Assembly: GCA_003140595.1 (NCBI GenBank)
Contig: PLKG01000137.1
Location: 1 to 47,604, forward strand
DNA length: 47,604 bases
Origin: Acidimicrobiaceae bacterium
GTDB lineage: Bacteria; Actinomycetota; Acidimicrobiia; Acidimicrobiales; Bog-793
Reading direction: 5' to 3'
In this document: positions 5,253-16,948 of the stretch, in pieces
Layout of the letters: the number at the start of each line of letters is the position of its first letter
How positions within the stretch are numbered: position 1 is the stretch's first letter
Program-made: the position numbers and the translations under genes
The notes under the pieces: generated by a model
The model's database searches: none
The model's input: the letters and a program-made list of their open reading frames with translations, nothing else
Told to the model about the DNA's origin: nothing

Positions 5253-6793
5253 GCGATCACCTTTCCTCCAGCAGCTCCGGCCGCGGGCGAGTTGAGCGGC
5301 TCATAAGAGCCAAGGAGCTCGAGCAGCGTACGGACGCCGAAACCTGTGGATCCCTTGCGGAACTCCCCCGAGTCCTCGTCCGAGCGCGACGGGCCGGCGA
5401 TGTCCAGATGGGCCCAAGGCCGGTCCGCGACGAACTCTTGGAGCAAGAGCGCGGCGGTGATCGTGCCTGCTGCGCGCTTGCCCTGGTTCTTCATATCAGC
5501 TACTTCGGAGTCGATATCGGACCGGTACGCGTCGGGGAGCGGGAGCGGCCAGGTCGGCTCACCGGCACGCTCGGATGCGGCGTGGATCGCCGCTATCACG
5601 CGATCGTCGTTGCCCATCAACCCGGCGATCCGAGAACCGAGGGCGACCACACAGGCTCCCGTCAAGGTCGCGAGGTCGACAATGCAGTCAGGCTCCTCCT
5701 CGGCTGCGAGCGACAGACCGTCTGCGAGCACCAGGCGCCCCTCGCAGTCCGTGTTCACGACTTCGATCGTCTTGCCGTTGCGGATCTTGAGGACGTCACC
5801 CGGCTTGGTCGCCCGACCGCCGGGCATGTTCTCAGCGGTCGGAGCCAAGCCGACCACTCGGACGGCGACACCGAGCGCGCGGCACGCGCCAAGCGTCGCG
5901 ATCACGTCCGCGGCGCCACTCATGTCCGTCTTCATCGTCAGCATGCCCTCGGGCGTCTTCAGCGACAGTCCCCCGGAATCGAAGGTGATGCCCTTGCCGA
6001 CCAGGGCGACGGTGGGAACCGTGCCGTCCGGCCATTTGCTGGCGAGCGCGGCCGGCGGGTCGTAGACGAGCTTTATGAGCCGCGGGGGCTGGACCGACCC
6101 GGCGGCGACACCCAGCAGCCCGCCAAGGCCGGCCTCGGCGATCGCCGCTTCGTCTAGAACCGTCACCTCGAGCCCGCAGCGCGTGGCGATCTCGACGGCC
6201 ACCTCGGCGAGCTGGACAGGGGTGAGCGCACCCGCCGGCTCGTTTGAAAGGTCCCGTGCCAGCCGCGTCGCGTCCGCTATCACGCGGCCGCGCTCGAGGC
6301 CGCGCTCGGCCGGGGCGACCTCCTCGGCGGCGACGACGATCGTCAACGACTCGAGCGGATCCGGATCGCCCGCGTGGTAACGGGTGAACCGGTACCGGGC
6401 TCCCCAGAAGCCTTCGATTGCTGCCCCCACGGCCAGTTCCGCTCCGATACCGAGATCGCTGATGCCGCTGAGGTCGAGCGCGATGGTCTTGGCTTCACCG
6501 GTGGAGCGGGCGAAGGCCGCCCCCGCCAGGCGCAGCGTCGCCGCAGAGACTTGCCCGCGGTCACCGAAACCGAGCACAACGTCCGCACGTCCACCCTCGC
6601 CGGGAGTGATGAGCTTGTCGCCGGGCTTGGCCCTGAAACGCCTCTTCTCGCACCAACCGGTGTCGAGCTCGAGACCCGGCCGCGCCGTCTCGGGGCCCAC
6701 GAAAGCGCCCCAGCCGACAGCTTCGATGCGATCGGGGGCGGCGCGGGCAACTTCGGTCGGGAGCGTCATGGGCGAATGCATGGCTGCCATCAT
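5249..6793 (-). CDS. pepA: Leucyl aminopeptidase (M17 cytosol aminopeptidase)
   Basis: A two-metal exopeptidase of 514 residues that removes N-terminal amino acids from peptides in the cytoplasm. The C-terminal catalytic domain is clear: VGKGITFDSGG (265-275) provides the metal-binding Lys and Asp, MKTDMSGAADV (287-297) the next Asp and the following loop, and NTDCEGRL (347-354) the family signature, here with Cys where Ala is usual. The N-terminal third is the M17 regulatory domain. It is the middle gene of the operon from the corrinoid adenosyltransferase to the glucokinase, overlapping both neighbours by four bases. Confidence 0.95.
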   Translation of the reverse strand: MMAAMHSPMTLPTEVARAAPDRIEAVGWGAFVGPETARPGLELDTGWCEKRRFRAKPGDKLITPGEGGRADVVLGFGDRGQVSAATLRLAGAAFARSTGEAKTIALDLSGISDLGIGAELAVGAAIEGFWGARYRFTRYHAGDPDPLESLTIVVAAEEVAPAERGLERGRVIADATRLARDLSNEPAGALTPVQLAEVAVEIATRCGLEVTVLDEAAIAEAGLGGLLGVAAGSVQPPRLIKLVYDPPAALASKWPDGTVPTVALVGKGITFDSGGLSLKTPEGMLTMKTDMSGAADVIATLGACRALGVAVRVVGLAPTAENMPGGRATKPGDVLKIRNGKTIEVVNTDCEGRLVLADGLSLAAEEEPDCIVDLATLTGACVVALGSRIAGLMGNDDRVIAAIHAASERAGEPTWPLPLPDAYRSDIDSEVADMKNQGKRAAGTITAALLLQEFVADRPWAHLDIAGPSRSDEDSGEFRKGSTGFGVRTLLELLGSYEPLNSPAAGAAGGKVIA

Positions 6794-7353
6794 GCCTCTG
6801 TCCGGGGTCTCTTGACACGTGCGCCGCGGGCCGTCAGATGCTCCTGCTCAGATGAGCGGGCCAGGAGCCAGCAAAGGTCAGACAAGCGGTTCAGGTACGG
6901 CACGACTTGCGATCCGGCTCCCATACGGAGTGCGACGGCCTTTCGCTCGGCACGTCGGATGACGGTGCGGGCCAGGTCCAGCGCCGCGCTCGGCCGGCTT
7001 TGGCCGGGCACGATGAACTCGGACGGCATCGCGCCGGAAGCCTCGAGCTCGTGTACACGCCGCTCCAGGACATCGACCATCTCCTCGGTGACGAGCGTCG
7101 CGCCGGCAACCAGCTTGCGCCTGTTGCGAGGGGCCGTCGCGACCTCTGCCATGACTACCCACAAGCCCCGCTCCAGGCCTGCGAGCTCGTCGTCGAGCGG
7201 CAATCCACGCACCTCGGCCCGGGCGAGGCCCAGGGCCGCCTGGGCCTCGTCGATAACGCCGTTGGTCTCGATGCGAGCCGAGTCCTTCTGCACGCGCCCA
7301 CCGTGGAGGAGACCGGTGGTGCCGTCGTCGCCGCGTTTGGTCGAGATGCTCAC
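6790..7353 (-). CDS. Cob(I)alamin adenosyltransferase, PduO/MMAB type
   Basis: Transfers the adenosyl group of ATP to cob(I)alamin to make adenosylcobalamin, 187 residues. The N-terminal ATP-binding motif SISTKRGDDGTTGLL and the C-terminal signature SAALDLARTVIRRAERKAV, followed by YLNRLSDLCWLLAR, are diagnostic of the PduO-type fold. The reading frame continues upstream, but GTG at 7353 gives the standard family N-terminus and sits 7 bases downstream of TACGCT (7366-7361), which suggests a leaderless message. It heads the operon with pepA and ppgK. The cofactor it makes is the one that the cobalamin-binding protein at 15911-16948 would need if it uses adenosylcobalamin. Confidence 0.93.
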   Translation of the reverse strand: MSISTKRGDDGTTGLLHGGRVQKDSARIETNGVIDEAQAALGLARAEVRGLPLDDELAGLERGLWVVMAEVATAPRNRRKLVAGATLVTEEMVDVLERRVHELEASGAMPSEFIVPGQSRPSAALDLARTVIRRAERKAVALRMGAGSQVVPYLNRLSDLCWLLARSSEQEHLTARGARVKRPRTEA

Positions 7354-7360
7354 CGGCCGC

Positions 7361-7454
7361 AGCGTACTGGCGATCCCCCGCGGGGCGACATAGGCATATC
7401 GCCCCAGGCGACAGGCCCGAAGAACAGGCAGAACCAGGTCAGGGTCCATAGACT
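7361..7454. promoter_or_regulatory. Divergent leaderless promoters (adenosyltransferase / lipoprotein)
   Basis: Minus strand: TACGCT at 7366-7361, then 7 bases, then GTG (7353). Plus strand: TAGACT at 7449-7454, then 7 bases, then GTG (7462). Both start codons fall at the expected transcription start. No good -35 element is visible on either side. Confidence 0.45.
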
Positions 7455-7461
7455 CGCCCCT

Positions 7462-8067
7462 GTGCCGACCAACCAACTCCCCGGGCCCTCGCGGCCGCAG
7501 ACCTCTCGATCGGGCCGTTTCGCACGGCGCGCCACAAGCCTCCAGGGAAGAAGCCGACCACAAACGCGCACGGCTCGTCGGGCGGCTTTGTTGTGTGCTT
7601 GGTTGCTGTTCGCCCTGACGCTCGGCGCCTGCGGCTCGTCGGTCACAGCCACAACGACTACCACCCTGCCCTCGCCCGCCGCTTCGAGGACCGCGATAGA
7701 GCACGCCTACGCGGTGCTGTTCGATCTCGCGAACCCCGCGCTGGCGCCCAAGCTCGCGGTGGTCCAGGACGGCTCGGCGCTCAAGTCGGCGATGAAGACC
7801 GCACTCAAGAGCGCGCTCGCCAAGAGCGCCGCGGGCGCGACTGTGAGCAACATCGTCATCGAGCAAGGCTCGGCCTGCAGGGACGAGCTTCTGCCAAGTC
7901 CGTGCGCCAAGGTGACCTACAACGTCTTGAGCCCGACCAAGGCGCCGGTCCTTCGCGGTGCGGTCGGTGCTGCTCTCTACCAGCACGAACATTGGCTCGT
8001 CGGCAAGACCACGATCTGCACGCTGCTCGAGCTTGCGAGCTCTGGAAGCGTGCCGCCCGGCTGCTGA
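7462..8067 (+). CDS. Predicted lipoprotein, function unknown
   Basis: A 201-residue exported lipoprotein. From GTG 7462 there is a long basic, probably disordered N-terminal stretch of about 45 residues, then a hydrophobic segment (AALLCAWLLFALTLGAC) whose LGAC is a lipobox, then a Thr-rich linker. The mature domain of about 120 residues looks like a secreted NTF2-like or periplasmic-sensor-like alpha/beta fold (IEHAYAVLFDLANPAL, then HWLVGKTTICTLLELAS) with Cys residues that may pair. No ATG or GTG occurs between 7462 and the hydrophobic core, so this start is the only usual one. It converges on the transporter operon; no partner is evident. Confidence 0.7.
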   Translation: MPTNQLPGPSRPQTSRSGRFARRATSLQGRSRPQTRTARRAALLCAWLLFALTLGACGSSVTATTTTTLPSPAASRTAIEHAYAVLFDLANPALAPKLAVVQDGSALKSAMKTALKSALAKSAAGATVSNIVIEQGSACRDELLPSPCAKVTYNVLSPTKAPVLRGAVGAALYQHEHWLVGKTTICTLLELASSGSVPPGC

Positions 8068-12858: not shown

Positions 12859-12994
12859 GCTCCTACCCCTTGCTCTTGGCGCCGAACGCGATCGCCCGCG
12901 GTCGGCGACGCTATCAGAGCAGTTCATGGCCCCGGCTTGCTATGTCTGGGCACCGGCCCATTCTGGTCGGCACACGCCGCGCTCATGCGGATGC

Positions 12995-13066
12995 ACTGCC
13001 GTTTGGCAGTTCGAAACCATGTTCGAGATGGCGTTTCGCGAGTCGCGTTCTGCGCCGCCGTACGAT
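12995..13066. promoter_or_regulatory. Palindrome, LexA-like site and -10 element before the Rrf2 gene
   Basis: Three elements lie in the divergent intergenic region. ACTGCC-GTTT-GGCAGT (12995-13010) is a perfect operator-sized palindrome. TCGAAACCATGTTCGA (13011-13026) differs from the actinobacterial LexA box TCGAAC-N4-GTTCGA at one base. TACGAT (13061-13066) is a -10 element whose start site would be the GTG at 13074. Confidence 0.45.
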
Positions 13067-13073
13067 GAGGACC

Positions 13074-13517
13074 GTGAAGGTATCGACCCGTGGGGACTAT
13101 GCCAGCCGAGCCCTGCTCTCTCTTGCGCTTCGCGAGGAGGTCTCTCCGACCTCGGTCCGTGATATCGCGGAGCGGACGGGCCTCCCCCAGCCTTATCTGG
13201 AGCAGATCCTGCTCGCCCTCAAAGGTGCCGGGCTAGTCCGCTCCAAGCGCGGCGTGGGGGGCGGTTATGTCCTTGCCCGATCGCCGGACCAGATCACCTT
13301 GAGCCAAATCGTCAGCGCGGTCGACGGCCCTATCGTGGCCGGGGATTTCGGCCTACCGCACCAGAACGGCGCGTGCGACCACGAGGGCCAATGTGTGCTG
13401 CTCGCCGTTTGGGCCGACGTCGGTGAGCACATGCGCCACCACTTGGACTCCTTCACCCTTAAAGACATGGTCCTTCGCGCGCGCGGGAACGCGTCGCCGA
13501 TTTCGCCACTCGACTGA
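13074..13517 (+). CDS. Rrf2-family transcriptional regulator
   Basis: A 147-residue winged-helix regulator. GTG 13074 gives the family N-terminus MKVSTRGDYASRALLSLA and sits 7 bases after TACGAT, so the message is probably leaderless; the ATG at 13065 overlaps that element. The helix-turn-helix spans about residues 23-60 (VRDIAERTGLPQPYLEQILL, then GLVRSKRGVGGGYVLAR). In the sensing region only two cysteines are seen, in ACDHEGQC, whereas IscR and NsrR use three to hold an Fe-S cluster. An Fe-S, redox or metal signal is possible but not shown. It is divergent from the transporter operon and followed 90 bases later by a sigma factor gene. Confidence 0.9.
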   Translation: MKVSTRGDYASRALLSLALREEVSPTSVRDIAERTGLPQPYLEQILLALKGAGLVRSKRGVGGGYVLARSPDQITLSQIVSAVDGPIVAGDFGLPHQNGACDHEGQCVLLAVWADVGEHMRHHLDSFTLKDMVLRARGNASPISPLD

Positions 13518-13607: not shown

Positions 13608-14465
13608 ATGGGTGAGCACCAATTACCGAGAGGGGAGAGGGACGTCATCACGGCCGAGAACAAGATCGAGGATGTAAATACGTCAGAGCTGACCGCGGCG
13701 GAGCGGAGTCGCGTCCTGAGGGAGCCCACCTCCGGTGGGCCGGACTTGATGCGGCTGTTCCTCGACGATCTCGGTCGCTTCCCACTTCTCAGCGCCACCG
13801 AGCAGACCGAGCTGGCCAAGAGGATCGAACAGGGCGACGAAGAGGCCCGCAAGCAAATGATCGGCTCCAACCTGCGCCTCGTGGTGCACTGGGCACGCCG
13901 GTATCAAGGACGTGGCGTCGACATGATCGACCTCGTCCAGGAGGGGACCTTCGGCCTCATGCGCGCGGTCGAGAAGTTCGACTGGCGCAAGGGCTTCCGC
14001 TTCTCCACCTACGCGACCTGGTGGATCCGCCAGGCGCTGCAGCGGGCCGTGCAGTCCAAGGGGCGTGCCATACGACTCCCCGAGGACGCACTCGCAGCCG
14101 AGCTGGAGGCCGACCCGGACCATGTTCGCCTTCCCCGCGTGGTGGCGAGCCTCGACCAGCCGTTGACGAGCGACGCCACTGCGACACTCGGGGACGTGGT
14201 GAGTGGCGACGAGACCCCGTTCGAGGACGAGATCGCACGTACTCTCACGCTCGGCAAGCTCGACGCCGCCATCGACCGCCTGCCTGATCTGGAGCGCGAC
14301 GTCGTCCGGCTGCGTTTCGGCCTGGATGGAAGCTCGCCCGCCTCACTAGAGTCCACAGCCCGCACCTTGGGCATCGGCGTCCGTCGCGTTAGGCGCATCG
14401 AGGCATCAGCCTTGTCCTTCCTCGCGGTTCAGCCGGAGGTCGAGGGAGTGCACGACGCCGCCTGA
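13608..14465 (+). CDS. RNA polymerase sigma factor, sigma-70 family (group 2 type)
   Basis: A 285-residue alternative primary-like sigma factor. Region 1.2 starts at DLMRLFLDDLGRFPLL, region 2 is complete with GSNLRLVVHWARRYQGRG, DMIDLVQEGTFGLMRA and the promoter-melting FSTYATWWIRQALQRAV, and region 4 ends with a helix-turn-helix (ARTLGIGVRRVRRIEASAL). Region 3 is short. Region 1.1 is absent, which separates it from the housekeeping factor. The ATG at 13608 has no ribosome-binding site; a strong purine tract (13629-13640) lies inside the frame 6 bases before an ATC codon at 13647, so the true start may be downstream. Stress or stationary-phase genes are the usual targets of this group. Confidence 0.9.
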   Translation: MGEHQLPRGERDVITAENKIEDVNTSELTAAERSRVLREPTSGGPDLMRLFLDDLGRFPLLSATEQTELAKRIEQGDEEARKQMIGSNLRLVVHWARRYQGRGVDMIDLVQEGTFGLMRAVEKFDWRKGFRFSTYATWWIRQALQRAVQSKGRAIRLPEDALAAELEADPDHVRLPRVVASLDQPLTSDATATLGDVVSGDETPFEDEIARTLTLGKLDAAIDRLPDLERDVVRLRFGLDGSSPASLESTARTLGIGVRRVRRIEASALSFLAVQPEVEGVHDAA

Positions 14466-14765: not shown

Positions 14766-15914
14766 ATGGATCAACCGCCGCTGGACGCCAAGGCCGAATG
14801 CCGCGTTGCGGGACCGGCGGCCCTCGATGCCCTTCTCGAAGCGACGCGTGCCTTGCTCTGGATCAGGACACCCACCGACGCGAAAGACATAGCAGCCGAT
14901 CTCGTAACGGCCTTCGGCGGAACGGTCGTTCCCGCCGGCAGCGGCGATGCCGAGGCGATGCCTGTCGATCTGTCCTTCGGTGACGGCGAACCTGTCCTGC
15001 CGTCTGCTCCGCCGACCAGTACCGCCCGCATGTTGCTCGAACGGTACCTTCCGTCGTTGGTCGTGGACGTAGGTCGTGCACTAGAGCTCAGTTCACAGGT
15101 AGGCCGGTTCGATGAGGACGCATCGATCGACAGCCTCACCCGGCTTGCGAACCGGCGCATGGTCGGCAGGGCAACGGGGAGGCTGCGCTCCGACGAGGTC
15201 GTGATCATGGTGGATCTTGACCACTTCAAGCAGATCAACGACACGCTCGGCCATGCAGCAGGCGACCGCTTGCTCCGTGTACTCGGTCGGACGATTCGAG
15301 CTACTTTGCGCGGAAGAGACTTTGCCGGACGTTACGGCGGCGACGAGTTCGTCATCATTCTCCGCGACACAACCGATCCCGTCGCATTTCTTGAGCGATT
15401 TCGTGAGGCATGGCGGACCGAACGCCCATACGACGTCTCCTTCAGTGCCGGTGTCGCTCGCGTTGGGAAAGACACATCGTTGGCGCTGCCCGCGGCGGAT
15501 CACGCGATGTACCTGGCCAAGCAGGCCGGTCGCGATCAGTGGACCTGGACATCCAAAGGTGACGATGGGAACCAAGAACGGGTCGCCACCGCCGCTCCTG
15601 CTGGCCGAGATACCGCGGCGTTCGTCGCGTTCAGCCAACTTGACGTGCCCGAAGGCGCACAGGAGCAGCTCGAGTCGGCCTTTCGCGACCGCCTTGGTGC
15701 CGTCGAGCGGTGGTCAGGATCCCAGTCGTTGGAAGTGTGGGCCGACCTCGCCGACTCGACGAGGTACGTGATGGTGTCGTGGTGGACCTCGCCCGAAGAG
15801 TTCAGGTCGTACATGCGATCGGATGATCACCGCCGCTCCCACGACCGGATTCCCACCGGCGACTTGCGGCCTCGTCCCCGCGAGTTTCGGCGGTACCGGA
15901 TCGTGGCGCGATGA
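14766..15914 (+). CDS. Diguanylate cyclase with N-terminal sensor and C-terminal ABM domain
   Basis: A soluble 382-residue GGDEF enzyme that should make cyclic di-GMP from two GTP. Residues 15-115 form a small uncharacterised N-terminal domain (ALLWIRTPTDAKDIAADLV, then ARMLLERYLPSLVVDVGRAL). The cyclase domain follows: DSLTRLANRR, metal-binding VDLDHFKQINDTLGH (149-163), inhibitory I-site RGRD (182-185) and active site GGDEF (191-195), with exactly five residues between I-site and active site. Residues 284-382 look like an antibiotic-biosynthesis-monooxygenase (ABM/IsdG-like) domain, with VSWWTSPEEFRSYMRSDDHR and RSHDRIP. That fusion is unusual. The last four bases overlap the start of the cobalamin-binding gene, so the two products are probably made together. 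Activity and the ABM ligand are inferred only. Confidence 0.9.
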   Translation: MDQPPLDAKAECRVAGPAALDALLEATRALLWIRTPTDAKDIAADLVTAFGGTVVPAGSGDAEAMPVDLSFGDGEPVLPSAPPTSTARMLLERYLPSLVVDVGRALELSSQVGRFDEDASIDSLTRLANRRMVGRATGRLRSDEVVIMVDLDHFKQINDTLGHAAGDRLLRVLGRTIRATLRGRDFAGRYGGDEFVIILRDTTDPVAFLERFREAWRTERPYDVSFSAGVARVGKDTSLALPAADHAMYLAKQAGRDQWTWTSKGDDGNQERVATAAPAGRDTAAFVAFSQLDVPEGAQEQLESAFRDRLGAVERWSGSQSLEVWADLADSTRYVMVSWWTSPEEFRSYMRSDDHRRSHDRIPTGDLRPRPREFRRYRIVAR

Positions 15915-16948
15915 ACGCCGTGGATCCTTCGCAACGCGTTGACCGGTTCAGAGATCTCGCGCTTTCGGGCAACGTCGAGGCTGCGGTCAGATTTGCCTTG
16001 GACCTGCTCGACGCCGGTACGCCGGAGACAACCATCATCACCGACGTCATCGCAGTGACCCAACGCATGATCGGCGAAAGCTGGCTGAAGAACGAGTTGA
16101 GCGTCGCCGACGAACATCTCGCTACAGGTGTCGCCGAGTCGACGCTTTATGCGCTCTCGTCTGCCACGCCGGCTGCGAGCGGAGCCAGTTCAGTCGTGGT
16201 CGCCTGTGCCGAGGGCGATTGGCACTCGATCGGCGCACACATGATCGCCGAGATGTTCCGGGTCGAAGGCATCGACGTCTCTTATCTCGGCGCATCAACC
16301 CCGGCCGATGCTCTTGCCCAATTCCTTCGGCGTCATCGTCCCGACGCCCTCGTATTGTCGTGCAGTCTGCCGCTCTTTTTTGGAGGCGTGACAAGGTTGG
16401 CCGATGCCGCGCACGCAAGCGGCACACCCGTCCTTGCGGGTGGCCGTGCACTACACGGCGCGCCTGAGCGAGCTCGCCTGCTTGGCGCTGATGGCTACGC
16501 GGAGAACGTCGCCGAGGGCGTCAGGATTCTCGCCACCTGGCACGAGTTCCCTCCGGCCATCCGGGTCGAACCGACTGGGCTCCTCCCCGGCGCAGCGCTG
16601 CTCGAGTCTTTCGCCGAAGAGCTCGCTGACTGCGCCTACGCGAAGCTCCGTGCTCGGCTGGCCGCGATGGCGAGCTACTCACATCGCCAGCTCGAGCGCA
16701 CAAGGGAAGACCTCGCGTACATCGTGCGGTTCCTCGCTGCCGCTCGGCTTGTCGACGAACAAACCGTCTTCATCGAGTTCCTCGACTGGTTGGGCGAGCT
16801 CCTCCAAGCCCGCGGTGTTCCAAGGTCCGCCCTTGTGGCCGGGCTCGAAGTGCTCCAGTTCGCCATGCAGGAACACGACCTGGCCGAGGACCCGATCCTC
16901 ACCACCGGCTTGGAACACCTGGCCAAAGCGGCCCTGGCTCACGAATGA
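15911..16948 (+). CDS. Cobalamin-binding sensor-like protein (CarH-type cap, no DNA-binding domain)
   Basis: A soluble 345-residue protein. Residues 8-85 are a B12-binding-2 helical cap with W58, E68 and H69, the same W-x9-EH spacing that cups the upper face of the cofactor in the light receptor CarH. Residues 93-210 are a Rossmann-like B12 domain with D103-W-H105-S-I-G108 (DxHxxG; H105 is the expected lower ligand), LSCSLP (149-154) and AGG (176-178). The MerR DNA-binding domain of CarH is missing. Residue 59 is Leu where CarH has His132, which binds cobalt after photolysis, so any photochemistry may differ. Residues 225-345 are an extra helical domain of unknown function. Translational coupling to the GGDEF-ABM gene suggests that it reports light, oxygen or cofactor state to c-di-GMP synthesis; this is inference. 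Confidence 0.88.
   Translation: MNAVDPSQRVDRFRDLALSGNVEAAVRFALDLLDAGTPETTIITDVIAVTQRMIGESWLKNELSVADEHLATGVAESTLYALSSATPAASGASSVVVACAEGDWHSIGAHMIAEMFRVEGIDVSYLGASTPADALAQFLRRHRPDALVLSCSLPLFFGGVTRLADAAHASGTPVLAGGRALHGAPERARLLGADGYAENVAEGVRILATWHEFPPAIRVEPTGLLPGAALLESFAEELADCAYAKLRARLAAMASYSHRQLERTREDLAYIVRFLAAARLVDEQTVFIEFLDWLGELLQARGVPRSALVAGLEVLQFAMQEHDLAEDPILTTGLEHLAKAALAHE

Follow-up and report, generated by a model that had tools for sequence, protein, structure and literature searches.

Photocobilins are composed of a CarH-like adenosylcobalamin (AdoCbl) domain followed by a C-terminal bilin-binding globin domain, and a photocobilin linked to a cyclase was described in 2024 (PMC10979010). 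In this protein, AbDPcob (HAS09818; photoreceptor part in PDB 8J2Y), from an Acidimicrobiaceae bacterium, the cyclase is N-terminal to the photocobilin, and light lifts the apparent turnover more than 10-fold with respect to the AdoCbl-bound dark state, which is itself less active than the apo protein (PMC10979010). In AbDPcob the Asp that contacts the bilin is replaced by His, and biliverdin is bound poorly; in SasPcob of Saccharothrix syringae (PDB 8J2W/8J2X), Asp270 touches rings A, B and C of biliverdin (PMC10979010). Communication between the modules also takes place when they are separated. Specifically, the separated AbPcob, or SasPcob carrying both chromophores, activates the separated cyclase in trans in the light state, bilin-free SasPcob exerts the opposite effect, and the mixing of photocobilin and separated cyclase gives a larger species, likely a heterodimer (PMC10979010).

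The locus described here is part of a stretch of DNA of 47,604 nucleotides from an Acidimicrobiaceae bacterium, the whole of which is referred to as the window. Two overlapping genes, which very probably encode a B12-based light sensor and a signalling enzyme under its control, are listed with their features in the table. The first gene product (protein 1) is, judging from its sequence, an intact diguanylate cyclase predicted to synthesise c-di-GMP from GTP: it carries the GGDEF signature, the catalytic residues and an RxxD I-site, with RGRD five residues N-terminal of GGDEF. Among 15 aligned homologues, R182, D185 and the core catalytic residues are invariant, with D or E varying at the GGD/EEF position. 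The C-terminal ABM domain is recognised by Pfam at residues 289-360 (PF03992, E 4.7e-11). Coordinates, reading frames and Pfam searches bear out what an earlier note on this DNA had read from the letters, namely the GGDEF and RGRD motifs, their spacing, the ABM domain and the four-base ATGA overlap. In the structure model of protein 1 (mean pLDDT 81.7), an N-terminal alpha/beta domain with no Pfam match is followed by a long helix, the GGDEF domain, a flexible linker (265-279) and the ABM fold, and cyclases are listed among the matches of a fold search with the whole protein.

Table. Features of the cyclase-photocobilin locus (positions in the window)
Feature	Position	Strand	Basis
PduO-type cobalamin adenosyltransferase	6793..7992	-	PF01923, E 8.7e-43; outside the conserved unit
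Predicted diguanylate cyclase with C-terminal ABM domain, 382 aa	14766..15914	+	ORF; PF00990, PF03992; conserved beside photocobilins
N-terminal alpha/beta domain of cyclase, residues ~15-85	14808..15020	+	Model; recurs in photocobilin-linked cyclases
Long helix into GGDEF, residues 86-120	15021..15125	+	Structure model
GGDEF domain, residues 119-258	15120..15539	+	PF00990, E 8.6e-32
I-site RGRD, residues 182-185	15309..15320	+	Sequence; R182, D185 invariant
GGDEF active-site motif, residues 191-195	15336..15350	+	Sequence
ABM domain, residues 281-382, photocobilin-associated clade	15606..15911	+	PF03992; alignment; clade; model pLDDT 90.9
ATGA stop/start overlap, gene 1/gene 2	15911..15914	+	Sequence
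Predicted photocobilin, 345 aa	15911..16948	+	8J2Y, E 7.6e-79; SasPcob, about 5e-50
Four-helix part of B12 region, residues 11-82; GESW (55-58), EH (68-69)	15941..16156	+	PF02607; motifs
Rossmann B12-binding domain, residues 94-204; GDWH (102-105), GASTP (127-131)	16190..16522	+	PF02310; motifs
Photoglobin/bilin-binding domain, residues ~216-321; Asp267, Trp293	16556..16873	+	PDB alignment; motifs; PF00502

Just upstream of the pair are encoded an Rrf2-type regulator (12870-13517, +) and a sigma-70 family factor (13608-14465, +). The PduO-type adenosyltransferase, a possible source of AdoCbl for the pair, is found nearby as previously indicated, at a distance of about 6.8 kb and not 8 kb. None of these three genes is kept beside the pair in relatives, among 24 loci compared. 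Moreover, no Rfam RNA was found near the unit and a scan for sigma-70-like promoters at the unit returned no match.

The second gene product (protein 2) has the sequence of a complete photocobilin, with a B12 domain and a C-terminal photoglobin. Among PDB entries the photoreceptor part of AbDPcob matches it best (residues 6-318), followed by SasPcob (residues 18-324), while CarH is matched at about 1e-13 in the B12 part only. The CarH-like combination of a four-helix bundle and a Rossmann fold is supported by PF02607, PF02310 and the 8J2Y alignment. In addition, the four light-signature motifs of CarH, GxxW, EH, GxxH and GxxxP (PMC11796333), are all present (G55/W58, E68-H69, G102/H105, G127/P131), and His105 of GDWH is by motif position the lower-ligand His. 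The alignments with 8J2Y and SasPcob run through the C-terminal globin-like bilin-binding domain, which gives a weak match to PF00502 (Phycobilisome, E 7.4e-4) and through which a linear tetrapyrrole is probably bound. By counting, Asp270 and Trp296 of SasPcob correspond to Asp267 and Trp293, by an offset that stays constant and holds for Trp61, Glu71-His72 and His108 of SasPcob as well. In analogy with the homologue, protein 2 would bind AdoCbl and undergo light-driven cleavage of its Co-C bond.

No Pfam match to an N-terminal MerR-type DNA-binding domain was obtained in protein 2, in which the B12 module starts at residue 11. CarH, the AdoCbl-dependent light-controlled repressor, shares with protein 2 the B12-binding module and the four motifs, but protein 2 has a photoglobin and no MerR DNA-binding domain. 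The initial view of a CarH-like protein that has lost its DNA-binding domain therefore applies to only half of protein 2, which is no CarH remnant: it missed the C-terminal photoglobin of about 130 amino acids, and the alignment with photocobilin structures is near full-length.

The window shares with AbDPcob the order of the modules (cyclase, B12 domain, photoglobin) and the N-terminal cyclase domain. For AbDPcob the latter was judged from a locus of Acidimicrobiaceae UBA9382 (L074), which matches the AbPcob sequence over the stretch compared and forms one open frame from cyclase through photocobilin. In contrast, AbDPcob is a single polypeptide without an ABM domain, whereas in the window the cyclase-ABM protein and the photocobilin are two ORFs in different frames, the ABM domain being inserted between the shared modules, and the bilin-contacting position is His in the former and Asp in the latter. 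SasPcob resembles protein 2 in being a standalone photocobilin with the equivalent Asp and Trp residues, but no coupled cyclase or ABM has been reported for it (PMC10979010). Genes adjoining SasPcob relatives in Micromonospora, Catellatospora and Streptomyces are, by eye, GAF/SpoIIE-like. The earlier note knew of no described system with these parts, but a photocobilin-cyclase was reported in 2024.

On this background, the gene 2 product would be a standalone photocobilin dimer binding AdoCbl and, via the photoglobin, probably a linear tetrapyrrole. Light would cleave the Co-C bond of AdoCbl, green light directly and red light via the bilin, and the resulting change in the shape of the photocobilin would, by contact with the gene 1 product in trans, modify c-di-GMP synthesis by the GGDEF domain, which would also be subject to feedback at the I-site. 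This path from light to photocobilin, to protein contact and to cyclase output is made probable by the close relationship to a system whose activity has been measured. That a B12 protein controls c-di-GMP synthesis through contact, as already put forward for this locus, is supported by the same homology, as the AbDPcob modules operate in this way both fused and in trans. If the pair behaves like AbDPcob, the output would go from a low level in the dark to a high one in the light; the sign of the regulation is, however, not safely transferred to the window locus, because bilin-free SasPcob acted oppositely in trans. The unit might instead sense the availability of AdoCbl and not light, in line with the lower activity of AbDPcob with AdoCbl in the dark than as apo protein (PMC10979010) and with the adenosyltransferase gene nearby. 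We consider this quite unlikely, given that light-signature and bilin-site residues are conserved, that the large effect in the homologue came from light (PMC10979010) and that the adenosyltransferase is unlinked to the unit in relatives.

A photocobilin match with E <= 1e-30 is present in 24 of 395 genomes of the class. The same pair is found in genome G307, with 59% and 50% identity for the two proteins, and among 80 named loci a cyclase-ABM gene immediately precedes the photocobilin gene in L059, L060, L061, L062 (the same contig as in G307), L063, L067 and L082 (which has frameshifts). Three adjacent genes encode cyclase, ABM and photocobilin separately in L068, L069, L070, L076 and L077, as well as in L072 with a degenerate ABM, while in L071 the GGDEF domain is broken across frames. 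Searches with the ABM add L141 (three genes) and L140 (fused). Split cyclase and photocobilin genes without an ABM occur in L064, L007, L129 and L135, and also in L066, where the photocobilin changes frame; the single-chain cyclase-photocobilin fusions L074 and L099 both lack an ABM. Stop/start overlaps of the ATGA, GTGA or TTGA type recur among the loci. Leaving aside shadow ORFs on the antisense strand and a single generic match, no gene besides the unit is common to at least 3 of the 24 compared loci. The pairing is thus more than chance, since pairs of this kind turn up in many genomes, usually with overlapping stop and start codons, and no other neighbour is conserved, and the co-occurrence check proposed in the earlier note gave a positive outcome. 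In a tree of 48 rows, comprising photocobilins and B12-only relatives, most cyclase-linked photocobilins, including AbDPcob and that of the window, fall in one clade of 24 rows (99/96). Some contigs carrying the module (L060, L061, L072) are labelled Acidobacteria or Dormiibacterota, which may reflect mislabelled bins or transfer.

The part of the window unit with no counterpart in AbDPcob is the ABM domain. Its model has the IsdG-type, ferredoxin-like ABM fold and matches TT1380 (Z 14.7), IsdG (Z 13.1), IsdI W66Y (Z 12.2) and MhuD (Z 12.0), and its sequence matches HmoB. The fold matches also include polyketide-pathway ABMs and LsrG-like proteins, and being so general they do not assign a function by fold alone. 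Catalysis by IsdG uses Asn7, Trp67 and His77 (PMC6018153). At the corresponding positions the window domain has S290, Y349 and H359, with an extra His at 355, and the Asn-Trp-His triad is lacking throughout the photocobilin-associated ABM clade: Ser replaces Asn in 19/19 members, Tyr is found in 15 and the original Trp in 2 of the 19, and His in 16/19, a second His being placed one turn before the ligand His in 16 of the 19. In the ordinary ABM relatives the triad is present in 20 out of 20. With IsdG, IsdI, MhuD and HmoB the clade shares the fold and the position of the heme-ligand His; it is set apart by the Asn-to-Ser and, mostly, Trp-to-Tyr changes, by a branch of its own and by its photocobilin neighbours. 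A canonical heme oxygenase was discarded as the leading view on the loss of the triad, and the residues of the clade suggest that its ABMs are probably not standard heme oxygenases.

This bears on the possibility that the ABM supplies the chromophore, opening heme to a bilin as IsdG-like enzymes do and handing it to the neighbouring photoglobin. The closeness of the fold to IsdG, IsdI and MhuD, the HmoB match, the heme-ligand His kept in 16/19 and one ABM coupled to a photoglobin-only ORF would be in agreement with this role, as would the scarcity of canonical heme oxygenase (PF01126), which was not found in the window genome (94% complete) and is absent in 27/28 genomes with a photocobilin or a close relative. 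The family is, however, rare in the class anyway (8/247 genomes), so that its distribution (1/28 versus 8/247) is uninformative as a marker of bilin supply and was dropped as such. Furthermore, Asn is Ser in every clade member and Trp is nearly always lost, against an intact triad in all ordinary relatives, the ABM of genome G506 adjoins a B12-only protein, and a further ABM in which the triad is intact is encoded in the window genome. Chromophore supply by the clade ABM is accordingly held to be highly improbable. The second ABM of the window's own genome (L174; G000:C24:1515-1736), with its N-W-H triad intact, is a possible bilin source.

The main rival to the docking role considered below is that the ABM binds but does not degrade heme or bilin, acting as a carrier or as a redox/heme sensor providing a second input. 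The HxxxH pair of histidines is placed in the helix that bears the heme ligand of IsdG, crystal structures of IsdI W66Y with heme (4fnh) and of MhuD with biliverdin (6ple) are available, and catalytic residues, but not ligand residues, are lost clade-wide. On the other hand, the His is missing in 3/19 members and many proteins with no role in heme binding have the same fold, and such binding may be entertained as a rather doubtful possibility.

The photocobilin-associated ABMs (20) are split from 28 other ABMs by one branch (99/96). As most of them were first found via photocobilins, the ABM by itself was used as the query in independent searches of 396 genomes of the phylum and 397 of the order. 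These gave 12 further strong loci, 9 of which adjoin a complete photocobilin and 3 a partial one, namely B12-only (G506), photoglobin-only (G795) and B12-truncated (G794). In the phylum, the four best matches after the window (59 to 124 bits) were G723, G523 and G442, in which the ABM directly adjoins a complete photocobilin, and G506; weaker matches are mostly N-W-H proteins like HmoB and MhuD. In the order, nine matches including the window reached at least 123 bits and the next had 67 bits, with complete photocobilins beside the ABM in G199, G775 (two loci), G883, G936 and G346, the remaining two matches being those in G794 and G795. The G883 and G936 loci and one of those in G775 are apparently identical with L076, L077 and L071, and therefore are not extra examples, though found without a photocobilin query. 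Thus, in sequence searches this unexplained ABM domain is found almost only beside photocobilin-type sensors.

The partial neighbours deserve a description. In G506 (L143), the ABM, which differs most from the rest of the clade, is transcribed divergently from its neighbour, a CarH-like protein with a B12 domain and no photoglobin; a PAS/GAF-like ORF comes next. In G795 (L229:5756-6430), the ABM is coupled to an ORF of about 125 amino acids without any B12 domain, matching the photoglobin part alone of the photocobilin profile (E 4e-8); the idea suggested by this locus, that the ABM follows the photoglobin half, was dropped in view of the B12-only neighbour in G506. In G794 (L230:3704-4644), a cyclase and an ABM precede a photocobilin remnant without most of the B12 domain, which may be a real deletion or an assembly error. 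A correlation between the bilin-site Asp and the presence of the ABM is suggestive, with too few independent loci.

The ABM can be fused to the cyclase, encoded by its own gene or present with no adjoining cyclase (L096, L142, G346, G199), and so it tracks the photocobilin and not the cyclase. In G346 (L008:1-2490), a GAF-SpoIIE phosphatase, the ABM and the photocobilin are encoded in a row, pointing to a different effector. In G199 (L005:~1080-1501, L031), the ABM adjoining the photocobilin retains a vestige of the cyclase N-terminus with no GGDEF, and a cyclase of the same type is encoded on another contig. A domain serving solely for dimerisation, to raise cyclase activity, would suit the facts that ABM proteins are dimeric barrels (general knowledge; PMC4835899) and that GGDEF domains need dimers; it is an unlikely explanation for an ABM that many loci encode on its own and that is also present without any cyclase.

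Our best guess is a docking role, since the fusions L074 and L099 have no ABM and most split cyclase pairs have one. The ABM would be a dedicated partner of the photocobilin, with no working heme oxygenase activity, that most likely docks the effector onto the photoreceptor, in place of the covalent fusion of AbDPcob. Against a universal function of this kind stand the split pairs without an ABM (L064, L007, L129, L135) and the ABMs without a cyclase. A broader conjecture, advanced here with considerable reserve, is that the ABM represents an unrecognised third photocobilin component, a heme-oxygenase-like heme/bilin carrier or sensor that has lost its catalytic residues and also acts as a coupling adaptor, through which the state of the chromophore is conveyed to the effector, be it the cyclase or the SpoIIE phosphatase of G346. 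Taken as a whole, the locus is likely to encode a naturally split photocobilin-diguanylate cyclase, controlled by light in trans, with the ABM as a dedicated photocobilin partner.

The photoreceptor class and the cyclase output are already known, and the core of the unit is in this sense ordinary; what is new is that sensor and cyclase are split and come with an ABM partner that is dedicated to them and altered in its catalytic residues. No mention of the ABM clade in photocobilin systems was found in the literature, an earlier one being possible in the 2022 photoglobin survey (PMC8717448) or in the supplements of PMC10979010. In the 2024 photocobilin work, control in trans by standalone photocobilins was addressed by artificial mixing of fragments alone. 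The locus and its relatives provide sensor-enzyme pairs that are split in nature and whose output can be predicted, so that control in trans could be examined with partners that belong together. The ABM clade may represent a part so far missing from photocobilin systems, in coupling or in chromophore handling, and native two-part light-controlled cyclases could serve as optogenetic parts.
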